DNA from: Membranihabitans marinus | GTDB taxonomy: Bacteria > Bacteroidota > Bacteroidia > Chitinophagales > Saprospiraceae | Length of the DNA stretch: 60,273 nucleotides | Assembly (NCBI RefSeq): GCF_021729155.1 | Contig: NZ_JAJQYA010000030.1 | Span: forward strand, 1-60,273 | Direction of reading: 5' to 3' | Shown here: positions 1,631-31,934 of the stretch, in pieces | Layout: every line of letters starts with the position of its first letter | Position numbering within the stretch: the stretch's first letter is position 1 | Notes under the pieces: model-generated | Databases searched by the model: none | What the model was told of the DNA's origin: nothing | The model's input: the letters and a program-made list of their open reading frames with translations, nothing else | Made by a program: the position numbers and the translations under genes

Positions 1631-1941
1631 CGAATTACATTGCTGTCATGCCGGAGCACAGTGGCTAAAAACCCATCGAATTACATTGCTGTCATGCCGG
1701 AGCACAGTGGCTAAAAACCCATCGAATTACGGTGCAGTCACGCCGGAGCACAGTGGCTAAAATCCTATCGATTTACAGGGCAATCACGCTGGAGCACAGT
1801 GGCTTAAAACCCATCGAATTACGGTGCAGTCACACCGGAGCACATTTGCTAAAATCCTTACGAACTACAGAGCAGTCACGCCGGAGCACAGTGGCTTAAA
1901 ACCCATCGAATTACGGTGCAGTCACGCCGGAGCACAGTGGC
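1631..1941. repeat. 46-bp tandem repeat array A (six full units plus a partial)
   Basis: Units start at 1631, 1677, 1723, 1769, 1815, 1861 and 1907, always exactly 46 bp apart. Each carries a CGAATTAC-type block, a CAGTCACGCCGGAGCACAGTG-type block (a few substitutions) and an A-rich spacer. From the third unit on, two unit variants tend to alternate. 46 is not a multiple of three, so the reading frame rotates and the array is not coding. There are no unique spacers, so it is not CRISPR. The last unit runs directly into the three-hairpin module. Confidence 0.95.
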
Positions 1942-2035
1942 TCCGGTTCCCTCATCAAATGCCTATTTAAGGCATTTGGCTCTTCGAGCTTCATTCGGTC
2001 ATCTTCATCGTTGACTGAATTCAAGACTCTGGCAG
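1927..2035 (+). repeat. Three-hairpin module, copy A, with tail
   Basis: Hairpin 1 is CCGGAGC/GCTCCGG around ACAGTG (1927-1946). Hairpin 2 is CAAATGCC/GGCATTTG around TATTTAA (1956-1978). Hairpin 3 is GCTC/GAGC around TTC (1979-1989). A tail containing CGTTGACTGAATTCAAG and CTCTGGCAG follows. Loops and linkers are shared with copies B, C, D and E but stem sequences differ, see findings. About 240 bp of degraded, AT-rich repeat sequence continues to 2270. Confidence 0.85.
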
Positions 2036-2273
2036 AATTACGGACTGAGTATCCAATCAAATACCTGCAAATTTTTCTACTTTTTCATAGCACTAAAAAA
2101 AAGACATAGGATTCTAATTTTCAAGTATTAACCAATAGCCAAAACATTTTAAGCGAAGTATAACGTCAAACAAGTCCAACGATTACCGTTAATTACAAAT
2201 CTATTTCGTAAAAAATATCATTTTAATCTCTATAGCAATGTCCTAACCTTCGATATATGAAAGAATATACTTG

Positions 2274-3233
2274 TTAAACTAGAGAATAATTTTGTTCCTT
2301 CCCAGCTAGATAATCACTGATGATATTGTTAGCCGTTCCCAGAAGTTGTAAACGCGCATCTAAGGTAGCCCAAGCCATATGACTGGTAACTATACAATTG
2401 TTCAAACTCAACAAAGGATGATCTTGTTCTGGGGGTTCTACTTGTAATACATCTAAGCCTGCCGCCTTAATTTCCTTTTTATTCAAACTGTTGTACAATG
2501 CATCCTCATCTATTAATCCTCCCCTAGCGGTATTGATCAATATGCCCGATGACTTCATATTAGACAAAAAACCTTCATCCACCATTTGAGACGTATCTTC
2601 AGTTAAAGGGACATGAAGAGAAATAATATCTGATTTTTCAACTAAATCTAATAAAGCTACAGACTCTATCCATGGATATTTAATATTCTCAGGACTCCTA
2701 GTATAGGAGCAGACATCCATACCATAGGCATGAGCGATTTCTGCCACAGTATTTCCAATATTACCCATACCAATGATGCCCATTTGCTTATTTCGCAACT
2801 CCATCATAGAAGGAGCATAAAAACAAAACTTGGGTTCATTCGACCAAATCCCATCTCGAGACATTTGCCAATGGTAATGAACTTTATTGGTTATAGCTAA
2901 TATCAAGGCAAATACATGTTGTGCTACACTATGGGTAGAATAACCCGATACATTAAAGACTTTTATTCCCCTTTCTTTACAGGCATTTAAATCAACGTTA
3001 TCATATCCAGTGGCCAATACTTGTATCATTTTTAGATTGGGCAATTGATCTAATTCTGTCTTGGTTATTTTATACTTATTAATGAGTAATATCTCAACAT
3101 CTTGGTGATTTTTAATCAATAGAGATACATCGGTAGAATTCAAAATAACAGCATCCTTTAACACAGATATATCTTGCAAATTAATATCTCCAGTGGTTAC
3201 TGTATCGGATTCTAAAAGGACAATTTTAGGCAT
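2274..3233 (-). CDS. D-2-hydroxyacid dehydrogenase (glycerate dehydrogenase-like)
   Basis: NAD(P)-dependent oxidoreductase of the D-isomer 2-hydroxyacid dehydrogenase family, expected to be cytosolic and to interconvert a 2-keto acid such as hydroxypyruvate with its D-hydroxy acid. The Rossmann motif GMGNIG is at residues 155-160. The catalytic Arg is in NTARGG (R237), the Glu in VEPP (E266) and the His in SHMAWA (H285). The S-H-x-A-W-A-T form and the 319-residue length fit glycerate/hydroxypyruvate reductases better than SerA or lactate dehydrogenase, but the substrate is inference. It is a single gene with long spacers on both sides; repeat copy A ends just beyond its 3' end. Confidence 0.9.
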   Translation of the reverse strand: MPKIVLLESDTVTTGDINLQDISVLKDAVILNSTDVSLLIKNHQDVEILLINKYKITKTELDQLPNLKMIQVLATGYDNVDLNACKERGIKVFNVSGYSTHSVAQHVFALILAITNKVHYHWQMSRDGIWSNEPKFCFYAPSMMELRNKQMGIIGMGNIGNTVAEIAHAYGMDVCSYTRSPENIKYPWIESVALLDLVEKSDIISLHVPLTEDTSQMVDEGFLSNMKSSGILINTARGGLIDEDALYNSLNKKEIKAAGLDVLQVEPPEQDHPLLSLNNCIVTSHMAWATLDARLQLLGTANNIISDYLAGKEQNYSLV

Positions 3234-3865
3234 ATTTAATTCAATCTATTTGATGGGAAAGATACACATATGCCATTAAATCTTCAATAATATTTACAAT
3301 TTTATAATATAAGTCCCTCTATATTCAATATTCATGGATAATTATTTTAATAAATCACATACCATTATTCCCAGATTTTGAACCAGTTATATTATCCCTT
3401 GACATATTTAAAATGTTAAACCAATAATCTTTGAATAACACGAAAAATACATGCTAAAGATTTTTCAAACTACGCGGGGAAAATACAATACCATTACGAT
3501 GTATTAATCACATAATAGAAAAAATTATATATCGAAGGTTTATCTTTTAAAAATCAACACAATGAAGTATTGATACCAATATCTAAGGATTATATTTAGC
3601 GAAAAGGATACTCTATGGCCATGTTCTTAAATCAGCCTAATATACTTTGAATAATATAGTGAAGTTTTTACTGAGACTAAGAAATTTCTTATATAAATAT
3701 GTTTATATAACAACTTAAAGTATGGAAATTCAATAATCATCAGTACCAAAACATTAAAAGCCATACTGGATTTCTATTAAAAGAATCAAGTACAGCCATA
3801 ATGTATTTTGAAATCAACAATCACTTTATATCTCTAATGATAAAGAGGTCTGAAAAGTGGATTGA
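3234..3865. other. AT-rich spacer, nothing recognised
   Basis: About 630 bp between the dehydrogenase and the DUF547 gene. It is strongly AT-rich with no reading frame of note, no clear hairpin and none of the dispersed repeats seen elsewhere in the window. Confidence 0.6.
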
Positions 3866-4561
3866 TTAATTATTAAGTGCCCAATCATACTCTTTGAAAG
3901 TTATCGTCGTGCCTTTATCTACCTTGGTGGAAGAGTATTTATTGATATAGGATAACACATCACCAAAATCTTCTTTATACCAATTCATCAATTGTGTTAC
4001 TTCTGCAGAATTCTTAGTTATGGTATTGAATTTGGGATTATTAATAAACTTCTTAGTTTGACTTTCTAATTGATTTTGGACTTTATTACCTACATAGGCA
4101 TTGTTCAATAAAGGAGGACAGGATTTTGCAGCACAATTTACAGCAAAATGAATCCTAGCATCTTTAAATTTTTTGCGAATGATTTCGTGTTCAATATGAT
4201 TTAAAGATATTAGGTCTCCATTATATTTAATCCATTTCTTTTCCCAAGGATTGCCATTTTCGATATCCTTTATCGATTTAACTGGCCAGTGATTAACGAT
4301 CAACTGAACGGTTGACAGGTTGTATAGGTTTATCCAAAATGCCAACTCATCGTTGGTATTCAAGCTACCTGCATTAACCTTGGACCAATCTTCAGATAAT
4401 TGTTTTAGATCACCACTATACTCAGACTTTATCTTTTGATAGTTGACTTTTCCTGTACTCGATACAGATTTTGTAAGAATAAGATCCCATTTATTAAAAT
4501 CTACCTGGGCCATTAGCGAAGAATATGTAAAAACTAAGAAAAATAATAAATTGATTTTCAT
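3866..4561 (-). CDS. DUF547 domain secreted protein
   Basis: A 231-residue protein with a cleavable signal peptide (MKINLLFFLVFTYSSLMAQ), so probably periplasmic. The rest is one DUF547 domain, recognised by AFWINLYN (residues about 74-81) and HFAVNCAAKSCPPL (about 138-151), the most conserved parts of the family. DUF547 has no established enzymatic role; a distant cysteine-protease-like fold has been discussed for related proteins but no activity should be assigned. It stands alone in its transcription unit, about 90 bp downstream of the TerB-like gene on the same strand. Confidence 0.85.
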   Translation of the reverse strand: MKINLLFFLVFTYSSLMAQVDFNKWDLILTKSVSSTGKVNYQKIKSEYSGDLKQLSEDWSKVNAGSLNTNDELAFWINLYNLSTVQLIVNHWPVKSIKDIENGNPWEKKWIKYNGDLISLNHIEHEIIRKKFKDARIHFAVNCAAKSCPPLLNNAYVGNKVQNQLESQTKKFINNPKFNTITKNSAEVTQLMNWYKEDFGDVLSYINKYSSTKVDKGTTITFKEYDWALNN

Positions 4562-4652
4562 AATGTGAGTATTTATTCATTCAATACTCCTTATAAAGAA
4601 TGAATTCCACTAAATGATACAAAATTCATTAGCTTTAACAAATCTATAACAT

Positions 4653-5144
4653 TTAAGATATTTCTTCATCAATGCTCGGAGGTTCAACAGTATGAATCAT
4701 TTTTAAGTCAACTACTTGATCTTCCTTAGATCCAATAGCACCCCAACCTAAGAATCCACCAGTAGAACGAGCTACGTGTTTAGCAAAACTTAGAAAGCTT
4801 TGGTATAATTCATAAGCCAAAGTTTTATTTTCGATTTTAGAGAAGATGTCGTTTAAATGTGCTAATCTCAATTTAATGAGATTTGAAGTCTTTTCACTAT
4901 CAGCTCTAAACTCAGAGACCAATTGATCTACATCATCACTAAAAGTAAGTCCTACTTGCTTATAATATTCACTTAATGCTTTGGGCAAATTATAGGATCT
5001 AATTTTGGTAATTTTATTAGCCCATTCCGTTTCACTATCTTCAATTTTTCCGTCAGCTCCAGCGATCAACACAGTTATATCTGATATTGCCTTGATCAAT
5101 TGAAGATATTCTGACTCAGTAATGCCCTTAAATTTTTCGTTCAT
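4653..5144 (-). CDS. TerB-like domain protein of unknown function
   Basis: This 163-residue protein without signal peptide is mostly helical. Residues 24-40 (VLIAGADGKIEDSETEW) carry the A-D-G-x-I-x-x-x-E signature of TerB/TerB-like folds, where the acidic residues can bind a metal. The family is linked to tellurite resistance and stress in some bacteria, but most members are uncharacterised and no other ter genes are near. The C-terminus contains a glycine-rich STGGFLGWGAIGSKED stretch that could associate with membranes or fold back. It is divergent from the SH3 lipoprotein at 5267. Confidence 0.6.
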   Translation of the reverse strand: MNEKFKGITESEYLQLIKAISDITVLIAGADGKIEDSETEWANKITKIRSYNLPKALSEYYKQVGLTFSDDVDQLVSEFRADSEKTSNLIKLRLAHLNDIFSKIENKTLAYELYQSFLSFAKHVARSTGGFLGWGAIGSKEDQVVDLKMIHTVEPPSIDEEIS

Positions 5145-5166
5145 GGTTGAATTGTTGTTTAAAACA

Positions 5167-5174
5167 CAAATTTA
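5167..5174 (-). promoter_or_regulatory. Candidate Bacteroidota -7 box for the TerB-like gene
   Basis: On the minus strand TAAATTTG matches TAnnTTTG, 23 bp upstream of the ATG at 5144. The nearest upstream TTTG is only about 13 bp away, shorter than usual, so the -33 box is uncertain. Confidence 0.4.
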
Positions 5175-5266
5175 AATTTATATTGGACAAAATACCTTTC
5201 TTATTTTAAAAAATATTATCAATTTTGTAGCAACTAAGCCATAAAAAAACCACAACAACAAATCAG

Positions 5267-6163
5267 ATGAGATTTAATCTTTTAATTTCAATTTTTTCCT
5301 TACTTATCTTTATTCAATGTAAGAACAGCGGATCAGAACCAGAAGAAAACACAGTTGCAGCTGAAGTCGAAGTTGATACAACTCAATACGCAAAAATATT
5401 GGTAAATAATTTAAGAATGCGGACTACTCCAGATTTACAGGGTCAGCAACTAGCTCAAATTCCAGAAGGGCAAATCGTACCCCTAACTGGGATGAAATCA
5501 CATGAAAAGGAATCTATATCTATCAGAGGTGTTTCCGAGCCGAGGCACTGGTACCAAATCATATTCAATCGCGATACTGGTTGGATTTACGGAGGAGGTA
5601 TGGAAATAATTACACATGACAACATTGCCTTAGAAGCCATCAATGACCACCTTATAATCCCTGGCGAACGAGTAGGTATGATTACTGCAGAAGACAATGA
5701 GGCTTCTTTGATCGAAAAAATAGGTGGAGAAAATATTCAGCGCAGCCAACTGAACATAGGTGAAGGCGAGAAAGTAATGGGCAATATAGTTTACCCAGGA
5801 ACAGATAACGAATTATTTGTTTATTGGGAAAATGAAAATTTCACCAATTTAAATCAGATTGTCATTCGCAATCCTGATGGAGATTGGAAAACGGCCGAAG
5901 GTATTAAAATAGGAATGTCCATAGAAAAAATTAATGCTATTAACGATCAAACATTTCAGTTAATGGGATTTGAGTGGGACTATTCAGGTCGGGTCATTAA
6001 CTGGCAGGGAGGTAAATTAGACGACAGGTTGAAATTGTCATTTGAACACCACGGTGATATTTCTGTATATCCCTTTCTTCAAGGGGATAAAATTATTTAT
6101 TCCAACAACAGCAGTCTTATTAAAGTTAAACCTACGGTAGTTGAGATTGAGGTTTCATTTTAA
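5267..6163 (+). CDS. SH3-domain lipoprotein
   Basis: A 298-residue protein with a lipoprotein signal (MRFNLLISIFSLLIFIQC; lipobox ends at Cys18), so membrane-anchored and facing the periplasm or cell surface. Residues about 40-122 form a bacterial SH3 (SH3b) domain with the usual LRMRTTPDLQGQQLAQIPEG start and HWYQI...TGWIYGG end. These domains often bind peptidoglycan or peptides. The C-terminal 170 residues are not recognised but look like a compact beta-rich domain. Several Bacteroidota lipoproteins share this plan. It is the last gene before the second large repeat block. Confidence 0.8.
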   Translation: MRFNLLISIFSLLIFIQCKNSGSEPEENTVAAEVEVDTTQYAKILVNNLRMRTTPDLQGQQLAQIPEGQIVPLTGMKSHEKESISIRGVSEPRHWYQIIFNRDTGWIYGGGMEIITHDNIALEAINDHLIIPGERVGMITAEDNEASLIEKIGGENIQRSQLNIGEGEKVMGNIVYPGTDNELFVYWENENFTNLNQIVIRNPDGDWKTAEGIKIGMSIEKINAINDQTFQLMGFEWDYSGRVINWQGGKLDDRLKLSFEHHGDISVYPFLQGDKIIYSNNSSLIKVKPTVVEIEVSF

Positions 6164-6304
6164 TCGGTAATCCCTTAGGTTTAATAATTGAGTATTCTAA
6201 GATAAAACCAAATTGTTATTCCGATAATTTTACAAATGCTTCATCTCGATCAGCTACCGCATAAATAAGTAAAATTAGTTTATTGAATACTGCTTTTAAT
6301 TTGA

Positions 6305-6420
6305 CAAGTCAAAACTACAATTGCTGTAATAATATATTTCCATTGAGGGAAGACGACCACTGTGACGTGGGTGGATTGGCTACCATGCCGATACATGACT
6401 ACATCATCAATCTAAAGCTA
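6305..6420. repeat. Dispersed repeat segment with GGAAGACGAC box
   Basis: A stretch with CTGTAATAATAT, GGGAAGACGACCACTGTG and GGCTACCATGCCGA matches the region at about 60022-60115 and, in part, 17690-17715. It opens repeat block B. No coding sense is apparent. Confidence 0.55.
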
Positions 6421-6642
6421 GAAATTTAAAGCTATGTCGTCCCTTCAGGACTTGTTTATCAAGCTGGTTTAGCGTAATTACACTTCAATTCGACAGCGAA
6501 ATTACCCTCCATTGGAGGACGGGCTGACTTGTCAGACGGGGTGGATCGATTGAAAAAAATTAAATTTTATTATTTCCTGCAGAATTTCCTATTCACCCCG
6601 ACAGTAAACTGTCACCTCTCCACAGGAGGGGAATATGACTAT

Positions 6643-6906
6643 AGAATTATATTGCTGTCATGCCAGAGCACAGTGGCTAAATCCTTACGAACTACAGAGC
6701 AGTCACTCCGGAGCACAGTGGCCAAAAATCTTTCGAATTACGGGGCAGTCACGCCGGAGCACAGTGGCTAAAAATCTTTCGAATTACGGGGCAGTCACGC
6801 CGGAGCACAGTGGCTAAAATCCTTACGAACTACAGAGCAGTCACGCCGGAGCACAGTGGCTAAAATCCTTACGAACTACAGAGCAGTCACGCCGGAGCAC
6901 AGTGGC
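6643..6906. repeat. 46-bp tandem repeat array B (five full units plus a partial)
   Basis: Units start at 6643, 6688, 6734, 6780, 6826 and 6872. All are 46 bp apart except the first (45, one A missing). Sequences are near-identical to array A, with the same two unit variants. Preceded by the same small-hairpin cluster as array A and followed by the same three-hairpin module. The two open frames that cross it are artefacts of the repeat. Confidence 0.95.
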
Positions 6907-7000
6907 TCCGGTTCCCTCGCCATTGATCCATTTAGGATCAATGGTGCTTCGCACTTCGCTCGGTCATCTTCATCGTTGACTGAATTCAAGACTCTGGCAG
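6892..7000 (+). repeat. Three-hairpin module, copy B, with tail
   Basis: Hairpin 1 is CCGGAGC/GCTCCGG around ACAGTG (6892-6911). Hairpin 2 is CCATTGATCC/GGATCAATGG around ATTTA (6920-6944), a completely different stem from copy A with the same loop core. Hairpin 3 is GTGC/GCAC around TTC (6944-6954). The tail is nearly identical to copy A. Confidence 0.85.
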
Positions 7001-7001
7001 C

Positions 7002-7936
7002 AATACTGCCTCGATCTCCTCTTAAATACCAATAAATATTTCTACTTTTTAATAGTACTAAAAAAGAAATATTAGATTTTAAGTATCAAGCATCATTGAA
7101 AAGGCTAAATACTTAAAACGAAGTACACCTTCTAATAAATCCAAAGATGACCGTGATTTGTGAATGTATTTAGTTTTACGTCCTTGATCAAGGTTTACAC
7201 CACTGTGGCCACAAAGATTTGTACAAAGGACAGAAATAGTGTAGCGACTATAGCTTTTGTCATGCCATGGTTCGATCATTTCTTCGTTGACTAACTTTAT
7301 GGCTCTGGCAGCAAGACTACCTAGATCTCCTCTTAAATACCATAAAATTTTTCTACTTTTTCATAGTACTAAAAAAGAAATATTAGATTTTAATTATCAA
7401 GCATCATCGAAAAGGCTAAATACTTAAAACGAAGTACACCTTCTAATAAATCCAAAGATGACCGTGATTTGTGAATGTATTTGGTTTTTCGTCCTTGATC
7501 AAGGTTTTTCACCACTGTGGCCACAAAGATTTGTACAAAGGACAGAAATAGCGTAGCGACTATAGCTTTTGTCATGCCATGGTTCGACCATTTCTTCGTT
7601 GACTAACTTTATGGCTCTGGCAGCAATACTACCTAGATTTCCTCTTAAATACCATAAATTTTTTCTACTTTTTCATAGTACTAAAAAAGAAATATTAGAT
7701 TTTAAGTATCAAGCATCATCGTAAAGGCTAAATACTTAAAACGAAGTACACCTTCTAATAAATCCAAAGATGACCGTGATTTGTGAATGTATTTGGTCTT
7801 ACGTCCTTGATCAGGGTTTTTCACCACTGTGGCCACAAAGATTTGTACAAAGGACAGAAATAGCGTAGCGACTATAGCTTTTGTCATGCCATGGTTCGAT
7901 CATTTCTTCGTTGACTAACTTTAAGGCTCTGGCAGC
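7002..7936. repeat. Three tandem ~312-bp direct repeats
   Basis: Units start at 7002, 7313 and 7625 (spacing 311, 312), and a fourth diverged unit begins at 7937. They are highly similar throughout. Each contains on the minus strand a short frame beginning MTKAIVATLFLSFVQIFVATVV, a hydrophobic, membrane-like segment followed by a basic tail. It is 61 codons in units 2 and 3 (7390-7575, 7702-7887) and frameshifted by a 2-bp loss in unit 1. A diverged copy in the opposite orientation lies at about 37790-37930. Whether the peptide is made is unknown. Confidence 0.85.
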
Positions 7937-8175
7937 AATACTACCTCGGTCTCCTCTTAAATACCTCTAGAATTTTCTACTTTTCCATAGTACTAAAAAA
8001 GAAACTTATGATATTAGTATTTAAGTATCATCGAAAAGGCTAAGAATATTCAAACGATATGGAACTTTAAACGATTTGAAATATTAAACGATGTGAAACT
8101 TTAAGCGATGTGAAACTTTAAACGATGTGAAACTTTAAAACATCCAAAGATTACCGTTAATTATCATTGCATTTC
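7937..8175. repeat. Diverged fourth copy of the ~312-bp repeat with five 17-bp tandem repeats
   Basis: The left part matches the ~312-bp unit. In the middle, five 17-bp units of the form AAACGATGTGAAACTTT run from 8052 to 8136 with few substitutions. The right part (CATCCAAAGATTACCGTTAATTA) resembles the end of repeat block A near 2185. Non-coding. Confidence 0.8.
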
Positions 8176-8300
8176 GTAGAATTATAAATACTTTACTTAG
8201 AATCCCTTTGAAGAATAGAATCTTCTTCAGTAAAACTTACCTAAGTTCGTCTTCCTTTAAATCTTAGACAGGCCGTATTGTTTATAAACCAAAATTTCGA

Positions 8301-10135: not shown

Positions 10136-10162
10136 TTACCAATAAAAATTTGAACATATATA

Positions 10163-10192
10163 CAAAAAAAAGCCCCAATTAGGGGCTTTTTT
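10163..10192. terminator. Intrinsic terminator after the TPR gene
   Basis: GCCCC AATTA GGGGC flanked by A7 and T6 gives a symmetrical hairpin working on either strand. On the minus strand it closes the TPR gene that stops at 10217 and separates it from dctQ, which starts at 10135. Confidence 0.9.
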
Positions 10193-10216
10193 GCAAAATA
10201 AAATTTTACTTATTTA

Positions 10217-17499: not shown

Positions 17500-17603
17500 A
17501 TGGTTACAATTTATGTATCCGTGTTTTATCTAGCGTGGTTAAATGTTCTTTCTTTTGTCATATCCCTAGACCTTGGGGTTCATAATATGACCGAGTGAAG
17601 ATC

Positions 17604-17626
17604 CAAATACCTTAAATAGGCATTTG
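17604..17626 (-). repeat. Degenerate three-hairpin module, copy F (hairpin 2 only)
   Basis: On the minus strand CAAATGCC, TATTTAA, GGTATTTG repeats hairpin 2 of copy A with one change. The change gives a G-T (G-U in RNA) pair in this orientation and an A-C mismatch in the other. It is followed by CTTCACTCGGTCAT as in the other copies. The remaining 17500-18067 spacer holds other decayed repeat fragments, including a GGAAGACGAC box at 17690. Confidence 0.65.
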
Positions 17627-17738
17627 AGTCGCTGCATTCTAAGTCTTTACACTGATGAGCGCAGTTGAATTGTGGCAGTCAAAGTGAAGGAAGACGACTA
17701 CTGTGCAGTGGATGTGAATGAGAATAGTGTACAGCACC

Positions 17739-22314: not shown

Positions 22315-22374
22315 TTTTTATATTTTTATATGAATTACTAAAAGATTTATTATCAATGGATTACTATCTTATTT

Positions 22375-22854: not shown

Positions 22855-22913
22855 GGTGGCTGTTTATTTTGATGTCAAAATTACTGGCCAACCATTAGAG
22901 AGAAATAAGAGGA

Positions 22914-22931: not shown

Positions 22932-23083
22932 AAAATTCAACTCAGGTTTGTATTTTTTGTGAATTTCAAAAATTAAGAATTATTCGTTTAATAATTGAAA
23001 ATGAGGCCATATTCAATCTACATTTTGTTATTTCAACAAAGAAGATTGATATTAGAATGAAATTAGAAAATTCTAAAGACCCT

Positions 23084-24457: not shown

Positions 24458-24465
24458 AGACTATG

Positions 24466-25149
24466 TTATTCTTTCATAATATACCCCATTCCAATAACGG
24501 TTTGAATTAGTTTGTTGTCGTATCCTTTATCTACCTTGTTTCTCAAATAATTTACATAAACATCAACAACATTAGTACCCATATTAAAATTGATATCCCA
24601 TACATTTTCCAAAATATCAATTCTAGACATGACTTTATTTTTATTGATCAACAAATATTCGAGTAATCTAAATTCTGTTGATGTCAATTTTATTTCTTGG
24701 CCTGCTCTCTGAACACTTTTTGCATTTCGATCCAATTCGAGATCGGCTATATCCAAGATATCAGATTGCTGAACACCATTGCCTCTCCTCCGTGTCAATG
24801 CGCGCAATCTAGCAATAAGTTCTTTAAATTTAAACGGTTTTGTAAGATAATCATCAGCTCCATTGTCAAGACCACTAACCACACTATCGGTATTGCTCAA
24901 TGCAGTAAGTAAAAGAATAGGAATTTCGTGTAATTTCGAGGAACGAATATGTTTTAAGATTTCAATACCATCCATTCCAGGTAAAATGATATCGAGAATA
25001 ATGATATCTATATTTTTTTGTTCCAATAGGGCAAGACCTTGATGACCATTGTATGCAAGAAAAACTTCATATCCTGCTTCTTGCAAACCCTGCTGGATAA
25101 AAGCAGCTACATTTTGTTCATCTTCTATAAGTAATACAGTTTCAGACAT
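24466..25149 (-). CDS. OmpR-family response regulator
   Basis: A 227-residue two-domain regulator. The receiver domain contains the acidic pair E9-D10, phospho-acceptor D53 in ILDIILPGMDG and K in LTKPF. The winged-helix DNA-binding domain follows, with LTSTEFRLLEYLL and the N-V-V-D-V-Y-V-N-Y-L-R-N-K-V recognition region. The frame extends to 25242, but the extra 31 residues are hydrophobic and atypical, so MSETVLLIEDE at 25149 is the likely start. It is followed after 8 bp by its kinase, the normal CusRS-like order. Confidence 0.95.
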   Translation of the reverse strand: MSETVLLIEDEQNVAAFIQQGLQEAGYEVFLAYNGHQGLALLEQKNIDIIILDIILPGMDGIEILKHIRSSKLHEIPILLLTALSNTDSVVSGLDNGADDYLTKPFKFKELIARLRALTRRRGNGVQQSDILDIADLELDRNAKSVQRAGQEIKLTSTEFRLLEYLLINKNKVMSRIDILENVWDINFNMGTNVVDVYVNYLRNKVDKGYDNKLIQTVIGMGYIMKE

Positions 25150-25331
25150 AGAGATGATAAAATATTTATATGTGTTTATTAAACAAAAATAGAAAGCGAC
25201 AAAATTATATTTTTGATTGATAAATAATAGCTTACAAAACATTAAAATATCATTAGAAAATCTTAATGTTGGTGATTTAATATTGACAACCAGATTAATG
25301 ACCTAGTGTCTACTTCTTATACAAGGGTATT

Positions 25332-26591
25332 TTATTCAGGTAAGATCTCCCGATGCAGTGGGCAAGTCATACAATGAGAGCCACCACGAGCTCGAGATAA
25401 CTCAGCGGAAGGTAAGGTGATGATTGTCCTCTCAATCGAGTCTATGTCAAAATTAGGACTTTGTGCTTGTTTCAATAATTCCCTAGCCGGCATTATTTTA
25501 AAACCCAACTTTTTAAATCCTAATTCAGTATGTGTATTTCTATCATAGGTAAGGGCTACTCCTGGTTTAATCACCACTAAATTACAACCATCTGTCCATT
25601 GTTCCCGCTCTTGGTACGGACTCAAGCCATTTCCAGAAAAAACAAACTGGGTGTGTGGATTGACCTGTCTTAAAATATATTCTTTTACTGAACCGAAGTC
25701 CAATACTTTTCCATTCCTATAATTTACTTGCACACTGGAACCAATACCCTCATAGATTAAGGGTTTATAATTGACCAATACATCATCTGAAACCCATGTC
25801 ATCACCGTATCAATATGCATATAGGTTCGGCTAGGAGGAATATTAATCTGGACAACCTTTTCAACCACTTTTCGTTTGAACAATTCCTGTTTTAATCGTC
25901 CAATGGTGTATGCATTGGATCGTTCACTACAGCCCACAAGCAATGTGTCGGTATCCAGCATCATAATATCTCCCCCCTCTATGGCAATTGGTTCACCCAT
26001 CTTTGAAGGCATAAACAATTCCCCATTATTTAAATTTATAATCTTATCGGTATTGACTAGGGGTTTAAAAATTTCATGATTGTAAAAAATAAATTCTACT
26101 ATAAGATTCTCTCTATGTCTAGCCCTCTTAGCGGCTTTGGTCAATATTAAATGATCATTGACCATGACGGCAATATCTCTGGTAAATATAAAATTGGGAA
26201 TAGGATCAAATAGAAAATGGTCTCTCTTCTTATGGTAACCAGTGATCAAAGTTTGAGCTAAATCGACATCGGATAATTCCTCCAAATAAGTCAAATACAA
26301 AGGAGGTAGTCCTTCAGACTGTAGTATTTCACCTAAAAATAAATGCTTATTATCTCCTTCTTTTACCAAGGATTCGCATAGTAAATCCTCAATCTCAATA
26401 ACATTTTCAAGTCCTAAAAACAATGCCAATACATCTACAAAAACCCGATGCTCTTCCAACATTTGAGGATAAAATACAATATCATCAAAAAGTAAATCGT
26501 CGGATTGCTTGGGACTAACACGAGCTATTCCACTATCTGGCCGGTGAATTAACACCATTTTCAAAGATCCAATTTCTGATTGAACTAACAT
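25332..26591 (-). CDS. arcA: Arginine deiminase
   Basis: The 419-residue cytosolic guanidino-group modifying enzyme that hydrolyses L-arginine to citrulline and ammonia. The catalytic cysteine is C407 in GGSHCMTCPL. The other active-site blocks are visible: FTRDIAVMV, EGGDIMMLD and MHIDTVMTWV. Length and motif order match ArcA. The usual partners arcB, arcC and arcD are absent, so it may serve arginine breakdown, citrulline production or acid tolerance rather than the complete ATP-yielding pathway. Single gene. Confidence 0.95.
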   Translation of the reverse strand: MLVQSEIGSLKMVLIHRPDSGIARVSPKQSDDLLFDDIVFYPQMLEEHRVFVDVLALFLGLENVIEIEDLLCESLVKEGDNKHLFLGEILQSEGLPPLYLTYLEELSDVDLAQTLITGYHKKRDHFLFDPIPNFIFTRDIAVMVNDHLILTKAAKRARHRENLIVEFIFYNHEIFKPLVNTDKIINLNNGELFMPSKMGEPIAIEGGDIMMLDTDTLLVGCSERSNAYTIGRLKQELFKRKVVEKVVQINIPPSRTYMHIDTVMTWVSDDVLVNYKPLIYEGIGSSVQVNYRNGKVLDFGSVKEYILRQVNPHTQFVFSGNGLSPYQEREQWTDGCNLVVIKPGVALTYDRNTHTELGFKKLGFKIMPARELLKQAQSPNFDIDSIERTIITLPSAELSRARGGSHCMTCPLHREILPE

Positions 26592-26711
26592 ATTTCAATA
26601 TATTCAATACACTCAAAATAAGCAATATTTCTGTCATACTGAAATATTAAAACACTATAAAAATATAATTCACCAGAGATTCACATTAAATAAAATCAAT
26701 TTAACTACCAA

Positions 26712-27101
26712 TTATTCATAAAACAACTCTGGTTTACCATCTACACATATCACCGATGAAGGAGGTGTAACTACAGCACAGTCATCGTAAACTCCATATT
26801 CGATGTTGTATTTTCTTTGAGCTTCCGTATATTTTTCTACTAGAGCAAAAAGAGTTGCGGTATCCATTTTTATCGAATAGGGAATATATGCAGCTGGACC
26901 GCCGCAGGCCTTAGACCCTATAGGTCGAAACTGCCAATCGGCCTCATTGTCACAAACTTGATTATCGACGAGATTGTCTACTTCTTCCAATTGTTCGACT
27001 AAGAGCTTTAGATCAGTCTCTTGTACACTTAATTCACTGGTCTGGTTTTTGTCACATGCGGTAAAAATCAATACTAAAAACAGAAAAAAATAATTATACA
27101 T
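26712..27101 (-). CDS. Small Bacteroidota lipoprotein
   Basis: A 129-residue protein with lipobox IFTAC (Cys16). The mature part has a short helical acidic region (LKLLVEQLEEVDNLVD) and then the conserved-looking block CDNEADWQFRPIGSKACGG-PAAYIPYS, ending in CAVVTPPSSVICVDG. Four cysteines in the mature part could form disulfides. I recognise this as a recurring type of small Bacteroidota lipoprotein with no known function. Single gene between arcA and oxyR. Confidence 0.7.
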   Translation of the reverse strand: MYNYFFLFLVLIFTACDKNQTSELSVQETDLKLLVEQLEEVDNLVDNQVCDNEADWQFRPIGSKACGGPAAYIPYSIKMDTATLFALVEKYTEAQRKYNIEYGVYDDCAVVTPPSSVICVDGKPELFYE

Positions 27102-27223
27102 CTTTTAAAAATTAAAAGTTGATTAAAAAAATATATCTAACAAATACAAGACGAAGATAAATTTGAATCCGTTGGTATATTCATAATTTTTTCAATAATG
27201 AGCTTGACATTTTTGATAAAAGT

Positions 27224-28165
27224 CTACATCCATTCGACCACCTTCCCCCTATTTTTTTTCAACATAAAATCCGGCAGTGACTTCCGAATCTCATTTCGCA
27301 AATACTCAATCAATCGTTTTTTGGCATAATTTCTATAAGTGGCCACACTCACTTCCCTCACTGGCGCATCACCAGCAATCCATTTGACCCGATTTCGATG
27401 TTCGGGTTGGATATTACCGATTAACAACTCTGGAATCAAAGTAAATCCTCCTTGTAAATCCACCATCTTGATTAGGGTTTCAATGGCTCCACTTTCAAAG
27501 GTAAATTGACGATGTTCAGAATGAAAACTATCGCGACCACAGAGGTTTAGAGTCTGATCTCTAAAGCAATGTCCAGTTTTTAATGTCCAAATATCGTTTC
27601 TATTTAAATCCTTTTGTGGAATTTTTTCCAAATCCATAAACTCGTGATTTTCCGAAACATATACAGCAATTTCTTCGTAATATAGAGCATCGCATTCAAT
27701 TTGGTCATCGTGGATGGGTGTCACTAAAATTGCAGCATCAATGGTTTCCTTTTTTAAAGCTTCTATCAACTGCATGGTCATCATTTCGTGAACATTGATA
27801 ACGAGTTTGGGGAATTTTTTATTGAATTCTACAATAAAGAGGGGCAGTAAATAAGGAGATACCGAAGGGATAATACCGAGTTCAAGCACCCCTTCAATCT
27901 TATTTTGAAAAGAATCTAAGACATCGTGAAGATGATCTCGTTCAGAAAGAATTATCCGTGCTTGTTGAATAAAAGCCAAACCAATATCCGTGGGTTTAAC
28001 CGGCTTTTTGGACCGGTCAAACAAAATAATATTCAAATCTCTTTCCAACTTCTTAATCTGCATGGACAAAGTAGGCTGAGTAACAAAACACTTATCTGCG
28101 GCTAATTGAAAATTACCATAGGTGTGTAAGGCGATGACGTATTCTAATTGTGCAAATGAAAACAT
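27224..28165 (-). CDS. oxyR: Hydrogen-peroxide sensor OxyR (LysR family)
   Basis: A 313-residue LysR-type regulator. The N-terminal HTH is seen in FQLAADKCFVTQPTLSMQIKKLERDL (two segments, residues 19-44). The redox cysteines are C200 and C209 in GHCFRDQTLNLC, the same nine-residue spacing as E. coli C199 and C208, which strongly supports OxyR over a generic LysR. It is divergent from ahpC-ahpD. A large dyad in the shared 105-bp region is a probable binding site for control of ahpC and of its own gene. Confidence 0.95.
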   Translation of the reverse strand: MFSFAQLEYVIALHTYGNFQLAADKCFVTQPTLSMQIKKLERDLNIILFDRSKKPVKPTDIGLAFIQQARIILSERDHLHDVLDSFQNKIEGVLELGIIPSVSPYLLPLFIVEFNKKFPKLVINVHEMMTMQLIEALKKETIDAAILVTPIHDDQIECDALYYEEIAVYVSENHEFMDLEKIPQKDLNRNDIWTLKTGHCFRDQTLNLCGRDSFHSEHRQFTFESGAIETLIKMVDLQGGFTLIPELLIGNIQPEHRNRVKWIAGDAPVREVSVATYRNYAKKRLIEYLRNEIRKSLPDFMLKKNRGKVVEWM

Positions 28166-28179
28166 AGTTGGTATATATA

Positions 28180-28225
28180 ATATCTATAACAATATCAAAA
28201 TAATCAATATTGTTTATAAAGATAT
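28180..28225. promoter_or_regulatory. Dyad operator between oxyR and ahpC (candidate OxyR site)
   Basis: ATATCTATAACAATAT (28180-28195) is mirrored by ATATTGTTTATAAAGATAT (28207-28225), an inverted repeat of about 16 bp with small insertions, around an 11-bp centre. OxyR dimers/tetramers contact AT-rich dyads of about this size. It overlaps the TTG of the ahpC promoter. Confidence 0.6.
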
Positions 28226-28238
28226 TTAATCATATTTG
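28210..28238 (+). promoter_or_regulatory. Candidate ahpC promoter
   Basis: TTG at 28210-28212, an 18-bp spacer, and CATATTTG at 28231-28238 (7 of 8 to TAnnTTTG), 33 bp before the ahpC ATG. The TTG lies inside the right arm of the dyad, fitting activation by OxyR at the -35 edge. Confidence 0.6.
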
Positions 28239-28270
28239 CACCATCAAATTTTCAAATAAAAAAAACAGAT

Positions 28271-28840
28271 ATGAGTAACCGTGTATTAAACGTGGGAAGC
28301 AAATTTCCAGCATTCAACAAAATCGCTTGTGTAAGCTTAGAAAAAGGTAAAGAATTTGCAAATGTAAGCAACGAAGACCATCAAAAAAATGACCAATGGA
28401 TGGTAATGTTTTGGTGGCCAAAAGATTTCACCTTTGTATGCCCAACTGAAATCGCAGAATTCAATGCTGCTTATGAAGAATTCAGAGATAGAGACACTCA
28501 ATTGTTGGGAGCATCTACAGATTCTGAATTTGTACACTTGGCTTGGAGAAACGACCACGACGATTTAAGAGGTCTTAAATTTCCAATGATTGCCGATACC
28601 AGCAAATCACTAGCTGAAGAATTGGGTGTATTGGAAGCCGAAGAAAAGATTGCTTTAAGAGCCACTTTCATCGTAGATCCTCAAGGCATTATCAGATGGG
28701 TAGCTGTTAATGACTTAAATGTAGGTAGAAATGTAAAAGAAGTAATCCGTGTATTGGATGCCCTTCAAACTGATGAATTATGTCCTTGTAATTGGGAAAA
28801 GGGAGAAGAAACATTGACAGCTGCATTGGCTGCTAACTAG
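28271..28840 (+). CDS. ahpC: Alkyl hydroperoxide reductase AhpC (peroxiredoxin)
   Basis: A 189-residue typical 2-Cys peroxiredoxin that reduces H2O2 and organic peroxides. The peroxidatic cysteine is C57 in FVCPTE. C-terminal C171 and C173 form an ELCPCNW motif, the three-cysteine pattern of the AhpD-dependent mycobacterial type rather than the AhpF-dependent enteric type. The ahpD homologue follows after 17 bp, confirming the electron donor. Probably OxyR-activated. Confidence 0.97.
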   Translation: MSNRVLNVGSKFPAFNKIACVSLEKGKEFANVSNEDHQKNDQWMVMFWWPKDFTFVCPTEIAEFNAAYEEFRDRDTQLLGASTDSEFVHLAWRNDHDDLRGLKFPMIADTSKSLAEELGVLEAEEKIALRATFIVDPQGIIRWVAVNDLNVGRNVKEVIRVLDALQTDELCPCNWEKGEETLTAALAAN

Positions 28841-28857
28841 TAATTTAAAATAAGACT

Positions 28858-29430
28858 ATGTTACAAGAAGTAAAAAATGACATTATAGAAAATTTGGGCT
28901 TGGACCAACAAAACGATTTGTTGGATTTCTTAGTAGATGGTTCAAGTAGATACATCAAAGACATTAAGCTCAACTTTAAGACGGCTTTAGATGTCGAACA
29001 TATGACGGCCAAGGAGGCCCACCTAACAGGATTAGCAATTGCTGTAAATAATAAGAGCAGTAAACTAATCAGCTTTTTTCAGAAGAAATGTGCTGAATTG
29101 GAAGCTACAGAAGCTGAAATCGCTGAAGTCATTGCCTGTGCTTCTTTACTCAGTGCCAATAATATCTTTTATCGGTTCCGCCACTTTGTAGATTCCGATA
29201 AATACGATTCTATTCCCGCTAAGATTAGAATGAATATTATGGCTAAACCAGTTTTGGGTAAAGAATTTTTTGAACTTATCAGTCTAGCTGTATCCGCTGC
29301 CAATGGATGTGAAATGTGCGTTAAATCACATGAAAAATCTGTAAAGAGTTTCGGTTCAGGAGAACAAAGAATCTTCGATGCCATACGGATTGCTTCCGTT
29401 GTAACCAGTATTGATAAATTACTACTGTAA
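28858..29430 (+). CDS. ahpD: AhpD-family alkylhydroperoxidase
   Basis: A 190-residue carboxymuconolactone decarboxylase-fold protein. The redox motif is C151-E-M-C154 with H158, and E139 lies 12 residues before the first Cys, as in the proton-relay Glu of mycobacterial AhpD. It is expected to reduce AhpC, itself recharged by a dihydrolipoamide system. Second gene of the ahpC-ahpD operon, closed by a strong terminator. Confidence 0.93.
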   Translation: MLQEVKNDIIENLGLDQQNDLLDFLVDGSSRYIKDIKLNFKTALDVEHMTAKEAHLTGLAIAVNNKSSKLISFFQKKCAELEATEAEIAEVIACASLLSANNIFYRFRHFVDSDKYDSIPAKIRMNIMAKPVLGKEFFELISLAVSAANGCEMCVKSHEKSVKSFGSGEQRIFDAIRIASVVTSIDKLLL

Positions 29431-29457
29431 GAATTAAGCTACTTAAAACATGTTCAC

Positions 29458-29490
29458 AGCACTGCTTTATCACAAGGCAGTGCTTTTTTT
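29458..29490 (+). terminator. Terminator of the ahpC-ahpD operon
   Basis: AGCACTGC and GCAGTGCT pair around an 11-base loop, followed by a T-tract. It lies 28 bp after the ahpD stop. Confidence 0.92.
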
Positions 29491-29698
29491 ATATAATAAA
29501 TCATTACCAGCGATTCCGCAATATCCATACCGATATTTACATCGATACAAATACATATATTCAGATTTATATTTCCAAAATTGCAAAAACACACTGCAAT
29601 TAATTGGAAACAGATGTTTGTAATAATAAAAATAATATCTCGAAACAGCTATAACCATATAAATACCTATCTTCGATTCTTCACTTTAAATTATCGAG

Positions 29699-30769
29699 AT
29701 GTCTAATATTCCAAGCCGAAGAAATTTTATTAAGCAAACCTCAGTGTTGGGCAGTATTGCTCTTACTACATCTTCATTCAATATTATCACGACGGTCAAT
29801 CCTCCCTCTGGACCTACCATTGGACACGGAGATTATAAGTATAAGGTAGATAGGGAATGGAGTAAAATTGATGTTGCAAAATTTCCGGTAAACAACTGTC
29901 ATGAAATGGTCATGGATCGTCAACATCGCTTGATTCTTCTCACTGATCATCCCAAAAACAATATTCTGATCTACGATAAATCAGGAAAATACATAGATAG
30001 TTGGACTTTAAATTTTCCCGGAGGACATGGATTAACCCTAAAAGATGAAGGAGGAGAAGAATATCTATATATCACCGATGCTGGAAGTGGAAAAGTGGTC
30101 AAAACTGACTTAAAAGGCAGGATGGTTATGGAAATTCAACATCCTTGTCAATCTGGAGTCTACCCCGAAAATGGCATATTCCACCCGACTGAAACCGCTA
30201 TCGCTCCCAATGGTGATATTTATATCGCTGATGGCTATGGAGATCAATTTGTACTGCGATATAATGCACAAGGTGAATTTATAAGTAAATTTGGAGGCAG
30301 TAGTTTTTTGCAACCGGACAAATTCAAACAAGTTCACGGAGTAGCTATCGATGACAGAGATACCGACAATATTACTTTACTGTGTAGCGCTAGAATTAAA
30401 AATGAATTTAAAAGATTCTCTCTCGACGGGGAATACATAGAATCCTATTATATTCCCGGTGCTTTTGTTAGTCGACCGGTAATCCACGATAAAATGTTAT
30501 ATGCCGGTGTATGTTTTGGAATGACAGAAGACAATTATCAAATGCAGCTCAATCGAGGATTTGTCACTATTTTAGACCAAAACAACGTGGTGGTATCCAA
30601 TCCTGGGGGAAGTAAACCAAGGTATAAAAATGGAAAGCTAAAGCTAGTGCTTCAAGATCAACCCATATTTAAACACTGCCACGACGTTTGTATCGACAAT
30701 GATGAGAATTTATATGTCTGTCAATGGAATGCTGATAAAGTTTATCCTTATAAATTAATCCGTGTCTAA
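29699..30769 (+). CDS. Exported NHL-repeat beta-propeller protein
   Basis: A 356-residue protein with a twin-arginine-type signal (SRRNFIKQTS, R7-R8, then a hydrophobic stretch LGSIALTTSSF). The mature part is a six-bladed NHL-type propeller: successive blades have HPTETAIAPNGDIYIADGYG, HGVAIDDRD and CHDVCIDNDENLYVCQWN. Related proteins include peptidyl-alpha-hydroxyglycine lyase-like propellers and sugar-lactone binders, but no active-site set could be fixed. Tat export hints at a folded or metal-bound protein. Single gene followed by a mobile-element graveyard. Confidence 0.8.
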   Translation: MSNIPSRRNFIKQTSVLGSIALTTSSFNIITTVNPPSGPTIGHGDYKYKVDREWSKIDVAKFPVNNCHEMVMDRQHRLILLTDHPKNNILIYDKSGKYIDSWTLNFPGGHGLTLKDEGGEEYLYITDAGSGKVVKTDLKGRMVMEIQHPCQSGVYPENGIFHPTETAIAPNGDIYIADGYGDQFVLRYNAQGEFISKFGGSSFLQPDKFKQVHGVAIDDRDTDNITLLCSARIKNEFKRFSLDGEYIESYYIPGAFVSRPVIHDKMLYAGVCFGMTEDNYQMQLNRGFVTILDQNNVVVSNPGGSKPRYKNGKLKLVLQDQPIFKHCHDVCIDNDENLYVCQWNADKVYPYKLIRV

Positions 30770-30793
30770 GACTGTCCTCTATATAACATACTA

Positions 30794-30932
30794 CTACCAG
30801 AAACGCTTCATGTAGGTATTCACCGTGTTCCGGGATATGCCTAGAATGTCGCTTATTTTACGATTACTGTGACCGCCTAAGTGTAATGTGATAATTTGTT
30901 TAAGGTCCAATAAGATCAAGTGTATTTGCCAT
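30794..30932 (-). pseudogene. IS21 family transposase IstA, 5' remnant
   Basis: From an ATG at 30932 the minus strand reads MANTLDLIG. After a frameshift of one base it continues LKQIITLHLGGHSNRKISD then ILGISRNTVNTYMKRF to a stop at 30794. This is the N-terminal helix-turn-helix of IstA. The catalytic domain and istB are missing, so the element is dead. Confidence 0.8.
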
Positions 30933-31064
30933 ATCTAACCGCTTTTTTGCGACAAGATACTTGTACTTGATCTTTCAAAGTGGCCGGGAAAACTGGTCAG
31001 CCGGTGGCACAAAACGAACCGCTATGGAATGAATTGAACCCCAAAAATGGCACAAAACGATCCG
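30933..31064. mobile_element. IS21 element end with terminal repeat copies
   Basis: Two near-identical direct repeats, TGGCACAAAACGAACCG (31005-31021) and TGGCACAAAACGATCCG (31048-31064), lie upstream of the istA remnant. IS21 ends typically carry several such transposase-binding repeats. Confidence 0.65.
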
Positions 31065-31207
31065 TAATATCCACCGAGTTGAAATTAATTATTTTTAGAT
31101 CTACAGATAATATTACCATGGTTTTCACAATATCTAATTGCAAATATCATGACAAATCAATGTAAATACATCAGTGATTCAGATCAAAGCCATAGATTAT
31201 CGGATGA

Positions 31208-31274
31208 CGAATTACAGGGCAGTCACGCCAGAGCACATTTACTAAAATCCAATCGATTTACGGGGCAGTCACGT
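31208..31274. repeat. 46-bp repeat unit, short copy (one full, one half)
   Basis: A unit starting at 31208 is followed 46 bp later by a half unit at 31254. The half unit breaks off after CAGTCACG, directly before the hairpin element at 31279. The same junction occurs at 60126-60152. Confidence 0.8.
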
Positions 31275-31278
31275 TTTA

Positions 31279-31348
31279 ACGTAGAGACGCAATGCCTTGC
31301 GTCTCCCAAAACCACCTAATTGAGACGCAAGACATTGGGGCTCTACGT
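31279..31348. repeat. ACGTAGAG...CTCTACGT hairpin element, copy 1
   Basis: The outer arms ACGTAGAG and CTCTACGT enclose an inner perfect hairpin GAGACGCAA/TTGCGTCTC and a second copy of GAGACGCAAG. A second element with the same plan and the same right flank (TCAAAATGCATTAAAATATCAC) is at 60152-60219. Non-coding, mobile-looking repeat. Similar GTAGAGACGC motifs are, from memory, common in several bacterial groups. Confidence 0.8.
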
Positions 31349-31464
31349 CGTCAAAATGCATTAAAATATCACGCGTAGACGCAGTGAAAATTCGCTGCCG
31401 AATTGAAGTGTAATTACGCCAAATCAGCTTGATAAAAAAGTCCTGAAAGGACGAAATATGTCAG

Positions 31465-31483
31465 CATAGGGTGAAACCCTATG
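31465..31483. repeat. GAA-loop hairpin, CATAGGGT stem
   Basis: Perfect 8-bp stem CATAGGGT/ACCCTATG around GAA, flanked by GTCCTGAAAGGACGAAATAT boxes at 31439-31458 and, in part, 31508-31524. The same boxes surround the 37984 hairpin, which has a different stem. Confidence 0.75.
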
Positions 31484-31548
31484 AATTAATTGTCATCTTG
31501 AAAAGAAGTCCTGAAAGGACGACATAAAAGATTAAGGGGAAATCCTCA

Positions 31549-31627
31549 CGATTTACATTGCAGTCACGCCGAAGCCAGTGGATAAAATCTTTCGAATTAC
31601 GGGGCAGTCACGCCGGAGCACAGTGGC
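31549..31627. repeat. 46-bp repeat units leading into copy E region
   Basis: Two units start at 31549 and 31593 (spacing 44, a 2-base loss). The last unit is followed by the TACCCACC linker and then by three-hairpin modules on both strands. Confidence 0.8.
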
Positions 31628-31660
31628 CTACCCACCCGAAACACGGAGGTGAACGAGCAA

Positions 31661-31725
31661 GGTGCTTGCACCAGAGCCCGTAAATGGGGCTCTGGCGAGT
31701 GAAGTCATGCCCACTGTGGCATGAC
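31661..31725 (-). repeat. Three-hairpin module, copy E (minus strand)
   Basis: In minus-strand order: hairpin 1 GTCATGCC/GGCATGAC around ACAGTG (31704-31725), linker TTCACTCG, hairpin 2 CCAGAGCCC/GGGCTCTGG around CATTTAC (31671-31695), hairpin 3 GGTGC/GCACC around AA (31661-31672). The loops and the linker match copies A-D while every stem is different. Confidence 0.8.
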
Positions 31726-31766
31726 GAGATTCCATTATATTCGATGACGAGATGAAGTCTACCCAC

Positions 31767-31829
31767 CCACGACACAGTGGTCGTGGCTCCCTCATCGTAG
31801 ACCTATTTAAGGTCTACGGTTCTTCGAAC
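31767..31829 (+). repeat. Three-hairpin module, copy C
   Basis: Hairpin 1 CCACGAC/GTCGTGG around ACAGTG (31767-31786), linker CTCCCTCAT, hairpin 2 CGTAGACC/GGTCTACG around TATTTAA (31796-31818), hairpin 3 GTTC/GAAC around TTC (31819-31829), then TACATTCGGTC. Confidence 0.85.
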
Positions 31830-31865
31830 TACATTCGGTCGTGAGCTTCATTCAGGCTAACCCAC

Positions 31866-31934
31866 CCGAAACACGGAGGTTTCGGTTCCCTCATCAAAGG
31901 TCGATTTACGACCTTTGGTTGCTCTTCGAGCAAC
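31866..31934 (+). repeat. Three-hairpin module, copy D
   Basis: Hairpin 1 CCGAAAC/GTTTCGG around ACGGAG (31866-31885), linker TTCCCTCAT, hairpin 2 CAAAGGTC/GACCTTTG around GATTTAC (31895-31917), hairpin 3 GTTGCTC/GAGCAAC around TTC (31918-31934), then TTCATTCAGTCATC. Confidence 0.85.

Follow-up and report, generated by a model that had tools for sequence, protein, structure and literature searches.

Recognition of a shape adopted by one DNA strand is characteristic of attC sites, of attP of the CTX phage and of the ends of IS200/IS605 elements. Repetitive extragenic palindromic (REP) sequences and bacterial interspersed mosaic elements (BIMEs) are likewise presented as folded single-stranded DNA that is bound and cut (PMC8266576). 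GTAG REPs have one hairpin behind a GTAG tag, frequent G.T pairs and, in most families, mainly head-to-head dimers, while CGTC REPs of some Bacteroidetes are single stem-loops with stems of 8–9 bp, loops of 4–5 bases, an unpaired tag that is sometimes CCTC and a CCA-like tail, rarely clustered and lacking a dedicated transposase (PMC3733652). Mitochondrial hairpin elements of sponges and Allomyces combine several hairpins per unit with single-lineage amplification and are presumed to be mobile (PMC2800124). Here we describe an interspersed repeat of approximately 80–95 bases found in 60,273 nucleotides of Membranihabitans marinus DNA (contig NZ_JAJQYA010000030.1, positions 1 to 60,273, hereafter the window). 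It consists of hairpin 1 (M1) followed by one or more units M2, each composed of an enclosing helix, hairpins 2 and 3 and a tail. It keeps one elaborate fold although nearly all of the paired letters change, which suggests that a folded strand, possibly single-stranded DNA, is kept and copied.

Like GTAG REPs and BIMEs with their REP-associated tyrosine transposases (RAYTs), the modules are short intergenic palindromic repeats present in many copies and forming mosaic clusters. They differ from GTAG REPs by three hairpins, a helix with GA steps, scarce wobble pairs, the absence of a Y1 transposase from 6 of 17 carriers and head-to-tail arrangement (158 of the 188 pairs of modules within 400 bp of each other lie on the same strand and 30 on opposite ones); GTAG at the hairpin foot is not among the conserved bases of the module alignments. 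The likeness to CGTC REPs lies in the size of stems and loops, in CCTC, which precedes hairpin 2 in many copies, and in having no known transposase. However, the bases behind CCTC pair here across two hairpins, and the head-to-head dimers prevailing there are the minority here; the two are set apart by their descriptions. Sponge elements are organellar and conserve stems while loops vary, and here the opposite is observed. None of the REP, CGTC REP or sponge elements has this architecture.

Architecture and covariation of the module

The source genome measures 5.40 Mb in 78 contigs, of which the window is C23. The first-pass annotation had listed five copies (A–E) with their stems and loops, and all of these were confirmed by inspection; for the cluster in 31650-31934 an independent repeat search returned seven perfect inverted repeats with arms of 7–9 nt. 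In each copy M1 is directly followed by M2. The features of the window are as follows.

1629..1942, plus strand: 46-bp tandem array, units bear the 5' arm and loop of hairpin 1; terminates within copy A
1927..1946, plus strand: copy A M1, hairpin 1 CCGGAGC/GCTCCGG with loop ACAGTG
1947..2001, plus strand: copy A M2 (enclosing helix, hairpins 2 and 3, tail), model match of 77.5 bits
6657..6907, plus strand: 46-bp tandem array, terminates within copy B
6892..6911, plus strand: copy B M1, from sequence inspection
6912..6966, plus strand: copy B M2, model match of 79.5 bits
31767..31786, plus strand: copy C M1, CCACGAC/GTCGTGG, from the inverted-repeat search
31787..31841, plus strand: copy C M2, model match of 72.1 bits; C-G replaces T-A as the outermost pair
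31866..31885, plus strand: copy D M1, CCGAAAC/GTTTCGG with loop ACGGAG, from the inverted-repeat search
31886..31946, plus strand: copy D M2, model match of 69.7 bits; hairpin 3 of 7 bp
31704..31725, minus strand: copy E M1, GTCATGCC/GGCATGAC, from the inverted-repeat search
31650..31703, minus strand: copy E M2, model match of 59.6 bits; enclosing pairs AC/GT and GC/GC
17588..17630, minus strand: M2, probably degenerate; its hairpin 2 contains one mismatch, and a CACTCGGTCA tail lies at 17588-17597; recognised by eye, no model match
6345..6374, minus strand: M1-like remnant without M2, from pattern listing and sequence
17686..17714, minus strand: M1-like remnant without M2, from pattern listing and sequence

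The TTC loop of hairpin 3 ascribed to copies A–D is indeed present there, and copy E has AA instead. A further fragment reported at 17604-17626 looks by eye like a degenerate minus-strand M2, but the model does not match it. M1 of copies A and B is the final unit of the 46-bp array repeating the 5' arm and loop of hairpin 1, and a similar arrangement was found in stretch L020 (3960-4175), where four M1 units with 43-bp spacing have one M2 at the end. In the window and the fetched stretches the 55 bases of copy A M2 occur identically at 6 places, and copy C M2 has 10 identical copies including itself. Another tandem repeat (312 bp, 3.5 copies, 93% matches, 6960-8043) starts inside the end of copy B M2.

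In the alignment of 30 copies from the source genome M2 reads on the plus strand as TC-CC-TC-AT (hairpin 2)(hairpin 3) TNY-AT-TC-GG-TC. The sequence TTCCCTC, formerly regarded as a fixed linker after hairpin 1, and the tail TTCGGTCA turned out to be the two arms of a covarying helix around hairpins 2 and 3, built from 2-bp steps split by TC/TC on the plus strand and, hence, by GA/GA on the minus strand. On the latter, M2 runs as N-GA-NN-GA-NN, a 3-base linker, hairpin 3, hairpin 2 and NN-GA-NN-GA-N, after which hairpin 1 follows. The three hairpins of the original layout are present, but the unit is hairpin 1 plus a three-way junction rather than three independent hairpins. Conserved in the same alignment are TTC..TC, ATTTA and TC..TCA, and many copies have CCCACC ahead of hairpin 1. 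It is mainly in oligonucleotide chemistry that three-way junctions closed by a ladder of 2-bp steps with tandem G.A, and capped by a GNA mini-hairpin, are familiar.

In an alignment of 29 rows from several genera each of the 17 modelled pairs varies in both of its partners, and all four modelled pairs of the enclosing helix, with its arms about 40–50 bases apart, covary. In the 30 rows of the source genome 97.3% of the 480 pair cells hold a pair (65.8% on average after shuffling, with 0 of 500 shuffles as high), and the covariation score is 0.814 versus a shuffled mean of 0.224 and at most 0.142 in every slid register. For 53 distinct rows of relatives, which had been fitted to the model, the corresponding values are 94.1% against 63.0%, and 0.792 against at most 0.134 in slid registers. 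The initial impression that stems change yet stay paired is thus borne out, and the paired shape is kept as sequence drifts in other genera too. The script that selected the 30 rows required TC..TC flanks and, in hairpin 2, 6 bp or more of perfect stem, so the freer evidence is that of hairpin 3 and of the enclosing-helix dinucleotides. Inner dinucleotides covary as AT/AT (80), GC/GC (39), AC/GT (22) and GT/AC (6), with CC/GG and TC/GA rarer, among 218 rows, that is 247 distinct rows of the source genome minus 29 gapped ones, some of the 218 being out of register; the outer step in these rows alternates between CC/GG (59), CT/AG (59) and AC/GT (5). In the relatives' rows the inner step is 99.0% paired, its first pair being AU in 29, GC in 12, CG in 6 and UA in 1. 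Among 153 in-register rows of the source genome, T-A forms the outermost pair in 125 and C-G in 17, and the two positions are unpaired in 11. One of five measures, the number of further pair types, was not above shuffles: it was reached by 494 of 500 for the 30 rows, by 352 of 500 for the 29 rows and by 18 of 500 for the 53 relatives' rows. Hairpin 1, scored in a fixed 7-6-7 geometry in which 8-bp and other-loop forms lose register, shows 64% pairing over 63 arm pairs of the source genome (shuffled mean 42%, maximum 49%). Based on these data the paired shape is not due to chance.

Copy number, distribution and placement

The observation is confirmed and is larger than first noted. Covariance model R1, a model of M2, matches at least 150 candidates in the source genome (all 150 that were scored) and gave 326 matches with E <=0.01 in 606 kb of this genome, which comprise the window and 80 further stretches picked for containing hits. 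One string taken from M1 and the linker was found, with up to 2 mismatches, at 88 places in the source genome (reversed control 0) and at one place among 39 other genomes searched, so that the primary sequence of M1 and linker is nearly species-specific. The fold reaches further. With R1, 7 genomes match among 100 relatives, the source genome included, G068 being doubtful and G066 weak; with the broader model R2 there are matches in 50 of 398 Saprospiraceae genomes, which represent 27 of 112 genera, G066 not being one of the 50, while in a phylum-wide draw the source genome alone matches among 395. A pattern scan of named genomes returned 18 stretches, all 18 titled Saprospiraceae, Saprospirales or Membranihabitans, and both M. 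maritimus C281 and M. marinus DP5N28-2 match the module pattern. Stretch L074 of G002, a genome assigned by kinship to the genus of the window, shows 100% identity to L247 of M. maritimus C281 in two blocks (1715 and 1248 bases), which places the window in that genus. Copy number is uneven, from none detected in most relatives to at least 32 in G001; these per-genome counts are lower bounds (14, 57 or 150 candidates scored), and lone weak matches may be false. Loops, linkers and module order are retained in most relatives whose hits were listed. Genome G068 was not counted as a carrier, because its hits (L079, L085) fall in an apparent direct repeat. In both stretches the repeat GTCGTAATCCTAACTATACTGGAACACCGACTCC, with differing intervening sequences, looks CRISPR-like by eye and gives weak model hits.

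The modules are intergenic: 0 of 323 lie inside open reading frames (ORFs) under a rule that discards module-containing ORFs shorter than 250 aa. Gaps bearing them are convergent in 32, tandem in 44 and divergent in 7 cases, as compared with 56, 241 and 46 for all neighbouring ORF pairs of the same stretches, and the closest gene end is 3' for 215 modules and 5' for 96. Relative to flanking tandem genes the plus strand of the module is co-oriented in 89 cases and opposed in 62.

Among the 316 M2 units with sufficient context (7 of 323 at stretch edges are omitted) the left neighbour is a perfect 7-bp hairpin 1 in 183 and another M2 in 53; 58 stand behind a match of 5–6 of 7 pairs, a class taken as the best of 15 geometries and hence partly due to chance, and 22 are elsewhere, several with degraded M1 or M2. 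In relatives a perfect 7-bp hairpin 1 is directly upstream in 27 of 53 hits and at least 6 of 7 pairs are formed in 34 of 53, taking for each hit the most favourable of six geometries; the perfect hairpins comprise 17 different 5' arms. Identical M2 units occur with differing M1 alleles and unrelated right flanks, and the identity between such copies often stops a few bases from the outermost pair (six groups listed). Its placement next to M1 and its sharing between differing contexts make M2 look like a cassette that usually has M1 on its left. Module positions turn over, since the gap between the same two flanking genes contains M2 in G001 (L082) and lacks it in the window (2316-4507).

Several other assignments were rejected. 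The largest group of recurrent ORFs, 38 in 33 stretches, which might have indicated a protein-coding repeat, appears by eye to consist of frames running through repeats. Phage or plasmid cargo was discarded, as the pattern had no match in viral contigs and a DNA query of copies C–D had none in plasmids and phages. An intrinsic terminator was rejected for copies C–E, the sole terminator-like site in 31500-32100 falling outside the modules.

Strand, molecule and rival explanations

In 247 distinct copies of the source genome there are 3656 Watson-Crick, 43 G.T, 69 A.C and 101 other cells on the plus strand, 83 gapped cells being excluded. Alleles of hairpins 1–3 with a single mismatch carry 28 A.C, 9 G.T and 32 other combinations (28:9, p 0.0026), and with the enclosing steps added 37 A.C against 15 G.T (p 0.0032). 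Such an excess of A.C implies that wobble is accepted at positions that would be G.T or G.U in the minus strand. Triloops of hairpin 3 have the plus-strand form TNC, hence GNA in the minus strand, in 66 of 90 copies of 55 bases from the source genome and in 20 of 24 triloops of relatives, and the closing pair is C-G in 81 of these 90 copies and in 30 of 40 relatives' rows with all loop lengths (hairpin 3 is undefinable in 6 of 46). The pair beside the inner GA step obeys the minus-strand rule Y-GA-R in 212 of 215 Watson-Crick pairs of the source genome and in 41 of 48 pairs of relatives. Tandem G.A in a pyrimidine-GA-purine context and C-GNA-G mini-hairpins are unusually stable DNA structures, GNA triloops being favoured by DNA rather than by RNA. 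Folding with RNA parameters (140 in-register rows of the source genome, used for all energies) gave means of -18.6 for the plus and -19.6 for the minus strand and formed the inner enclosing step in 2 of 140 plus and 51 of 140 minus copies. Mismatches, triloops, GA steps and the RNA energies therefore favour the minus strand, which the DNA energies do not. Preference for DNA over RNA is moderately supported by scarce wobble, triloop type and the absence of gene-orientation bias.

The explanation we favour, tentatively and with slightly less than even confidence, is that of a non-autonomous interspersed repeat whose minus-strand fold is retained, most likely as single-stranded DNA, and is read by a shape-specific protein. 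The minus strand would become single-stranded during replication, repair or transfer and would fold into the three-way junction of M2, with hairpin 3 often forming a GNA triloop closed by C-G. A protein recognising loops, GA steps and junction instead of stem sequence would leave the stems free to drift as long as pairing stays. M2 has the properties of a cassette, its sharp ends coinciding with the outermost pair, and mostly follows M1 or another M2 directly; its dispersal may proceed by strand transfer or templated copying. The more specific version, in which folded single-stranded DNA with a ladder of 2-bp steps, tandem G.A and a GNA cap is dispersed behind a docking hairpin by an undescribed enzyme or pathway, is possible but doubtful.

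Several observations speak against this explanation. Mean DNA energies are -12.4 kcal/mol for the plus and -12.2 kcal/mol for the minus strand, and 30 of the 140 copies have the lower value on the minus strand. DNA parameters predict the enclosing helix in 0 plus and 4 minus copies of 140. The outer step has a recurrent TC/GT form with a T.T mismatch (18 of 218 rows), and in 7 of the 48 relatives' pairs the X position is C or T, which breaks Y-GA-R. The 28:9 asymmetry might also be produced by a strand bias of mutation. Module strand did not follow the GC skew of the stretch, a weak proxy (Spearman -0.04, 69 stretches): there are 111 plus and 68 minus modules in positive-skew stretches, 55 and 54 in negative-skew ones. 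No empty-site insertion or target duplication was present among 40 of 759 candidate rows, and those 40 resemble gain or loss of modules inside clusters. Finally, no common neighbouring mobile gene appeared among the 40 ORF groups listed in each of two clusterings, with families assigned by eye. Adjacent recombinase or transposase genes, viewed by eye, do not recur, in which the repeat differs from attC, CTX attP and IS200/IS605 ends as they are generally known.

Strong covariation is ordinarily read as a sign of structured RNA, and the minus strand might work as a multicopy structured non-coding RNA or as an element of mRNA ends. The ability of RNA parameters to form the inner step predominantly on the minus strand, with the lower mean energy, is in line with this, as are the common occurrence of tandem GA steps in RNA and the 3' position of the nearest gene end (215 of 311). 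Structured RNAs usually show several per cent of wobble, however, and here wobble cells make up 43 (plus) or 69 (minus) of 3869; the triloops are of the DNA type, and with respect to flanking tandem genes no bias towards the minus strand is seen. No module overlaps an Rfam hit at the curated gathering cut-off, in accordance with the earlier statement that no known family has this layout; overlaps below the threshold within 31100-32050 are with mir-1005 (E 0.6) and Vax2os1_2 (E 0.15). We consider the RNA explanation unlikely. Membership in, or descent from, the REP class, with movement by a current or recently lost Y1 transposase, is still less likely. It would account for the shared habit of many intergenic palindromic copies in mosaic clusters at 3' gene ends, and the source genome does encode three Y1 genes; in the case of L109:4160-4612, M2 copies lie roughly 0.65 kb upstream of the gene and 1.9 kb downstream of it. 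Yet this gene is directly preceded by CCTGAAAGGG-type repeats and not by M1 or M2 (flanks of the other two were viewed partly), Y1 is common irrespective of M2 (70 of 100 relatives), and GTAG-tagged single hairpins do not resemble three hairpins with an enclosing helix. The carriers devoid of Y1_Tnp, in keeping with the poor fit to REP/RAYT suspected from the outset, include G067 (99% complete), G015 (97%) and the weak carrier G066 among the 17 selected; Y1 is present in three further carriers, G000, G001 and G002. RVT_1 is absent from 9 of 16 and Y2 transposase from 12 of 16 carriers, the source genome included in both cases. Thus Y1, reverse transcriptase and Y2 are each unneeded for the presence of the repeat, although loss after spread is possible.

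A covariation without selection on shape could arise if template switching in imperfect palindromes copied one arm to the other, and perfect stems with few wobble intermediates are what is proposed for this process in PMC8794818. The enclosing arms, however, lie about 40–50 bases apart with two hairpins between them, so hairpin-primed switching cannot maintain their 2-bp steps, yet all four modelled pairs of the enclosing helix covary; fold selection, or copying that requires the fold, is therefore needed. Most listed relatives also keep loops, linkers and module order. Template switching may help to perfect hairpins 1–3, but as the whole explanation it is very improbable. Improbable as well, if marginally less so, is a repeat of use to the host as a binding site for a nucleoid, repair or segregation protein, amplified by recombination and kept for its role. 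Retention of the fold across many genera, confined in our searches to one bacterial family, is compatible with it, while the very uneven copy number (none detected in most relatives, 326 matches in part of the source genome) and the presence or absence of the module at the single compared locus speak against it. In the favoured reading, scarce wobble and motifs regarded as DNA-type suggest that the module may offer a natural example of a DNA fold under selection across many genera, in a repeat family with hundreds of matches in one genome and without a recognised mobiliser. No description of such an element was met among the titles and abstract openings listed in the literature searches, with slight coverage of subscription journals.

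Neighbouring repeats

Acido-Lenti-1 RNA (RF01687) is another repeated hairpin in the same intergenic stretch of the window (31439-31483, minus strand, and below the threshold at 31508-31529, minus strand), but it is a separate sequence and overlaps no M1 or M2. It recurs in the source genome, in L148 (15129-15173 and 15354-15398) and in L154 (9940-9984). By-eye similar repeats precede the Y1 gene of L109 (4060-4160), a stretch without a match at the curated cut-off. Acido-Lenti-1 may represent DNA elements of REP-like type and not a small RNA. One more dispersed repeat (AATTGTCAGAACATGATGG...) was seen in L109 at 3175-3290, 3535-3660 and 6210-6330; it twice abuts an apparent truncated M2 tail, so repeat families appear chained together. 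At the left end of the window, positions 1-970 resemble by eye candidate accessory genes of an IS66-type transposon.

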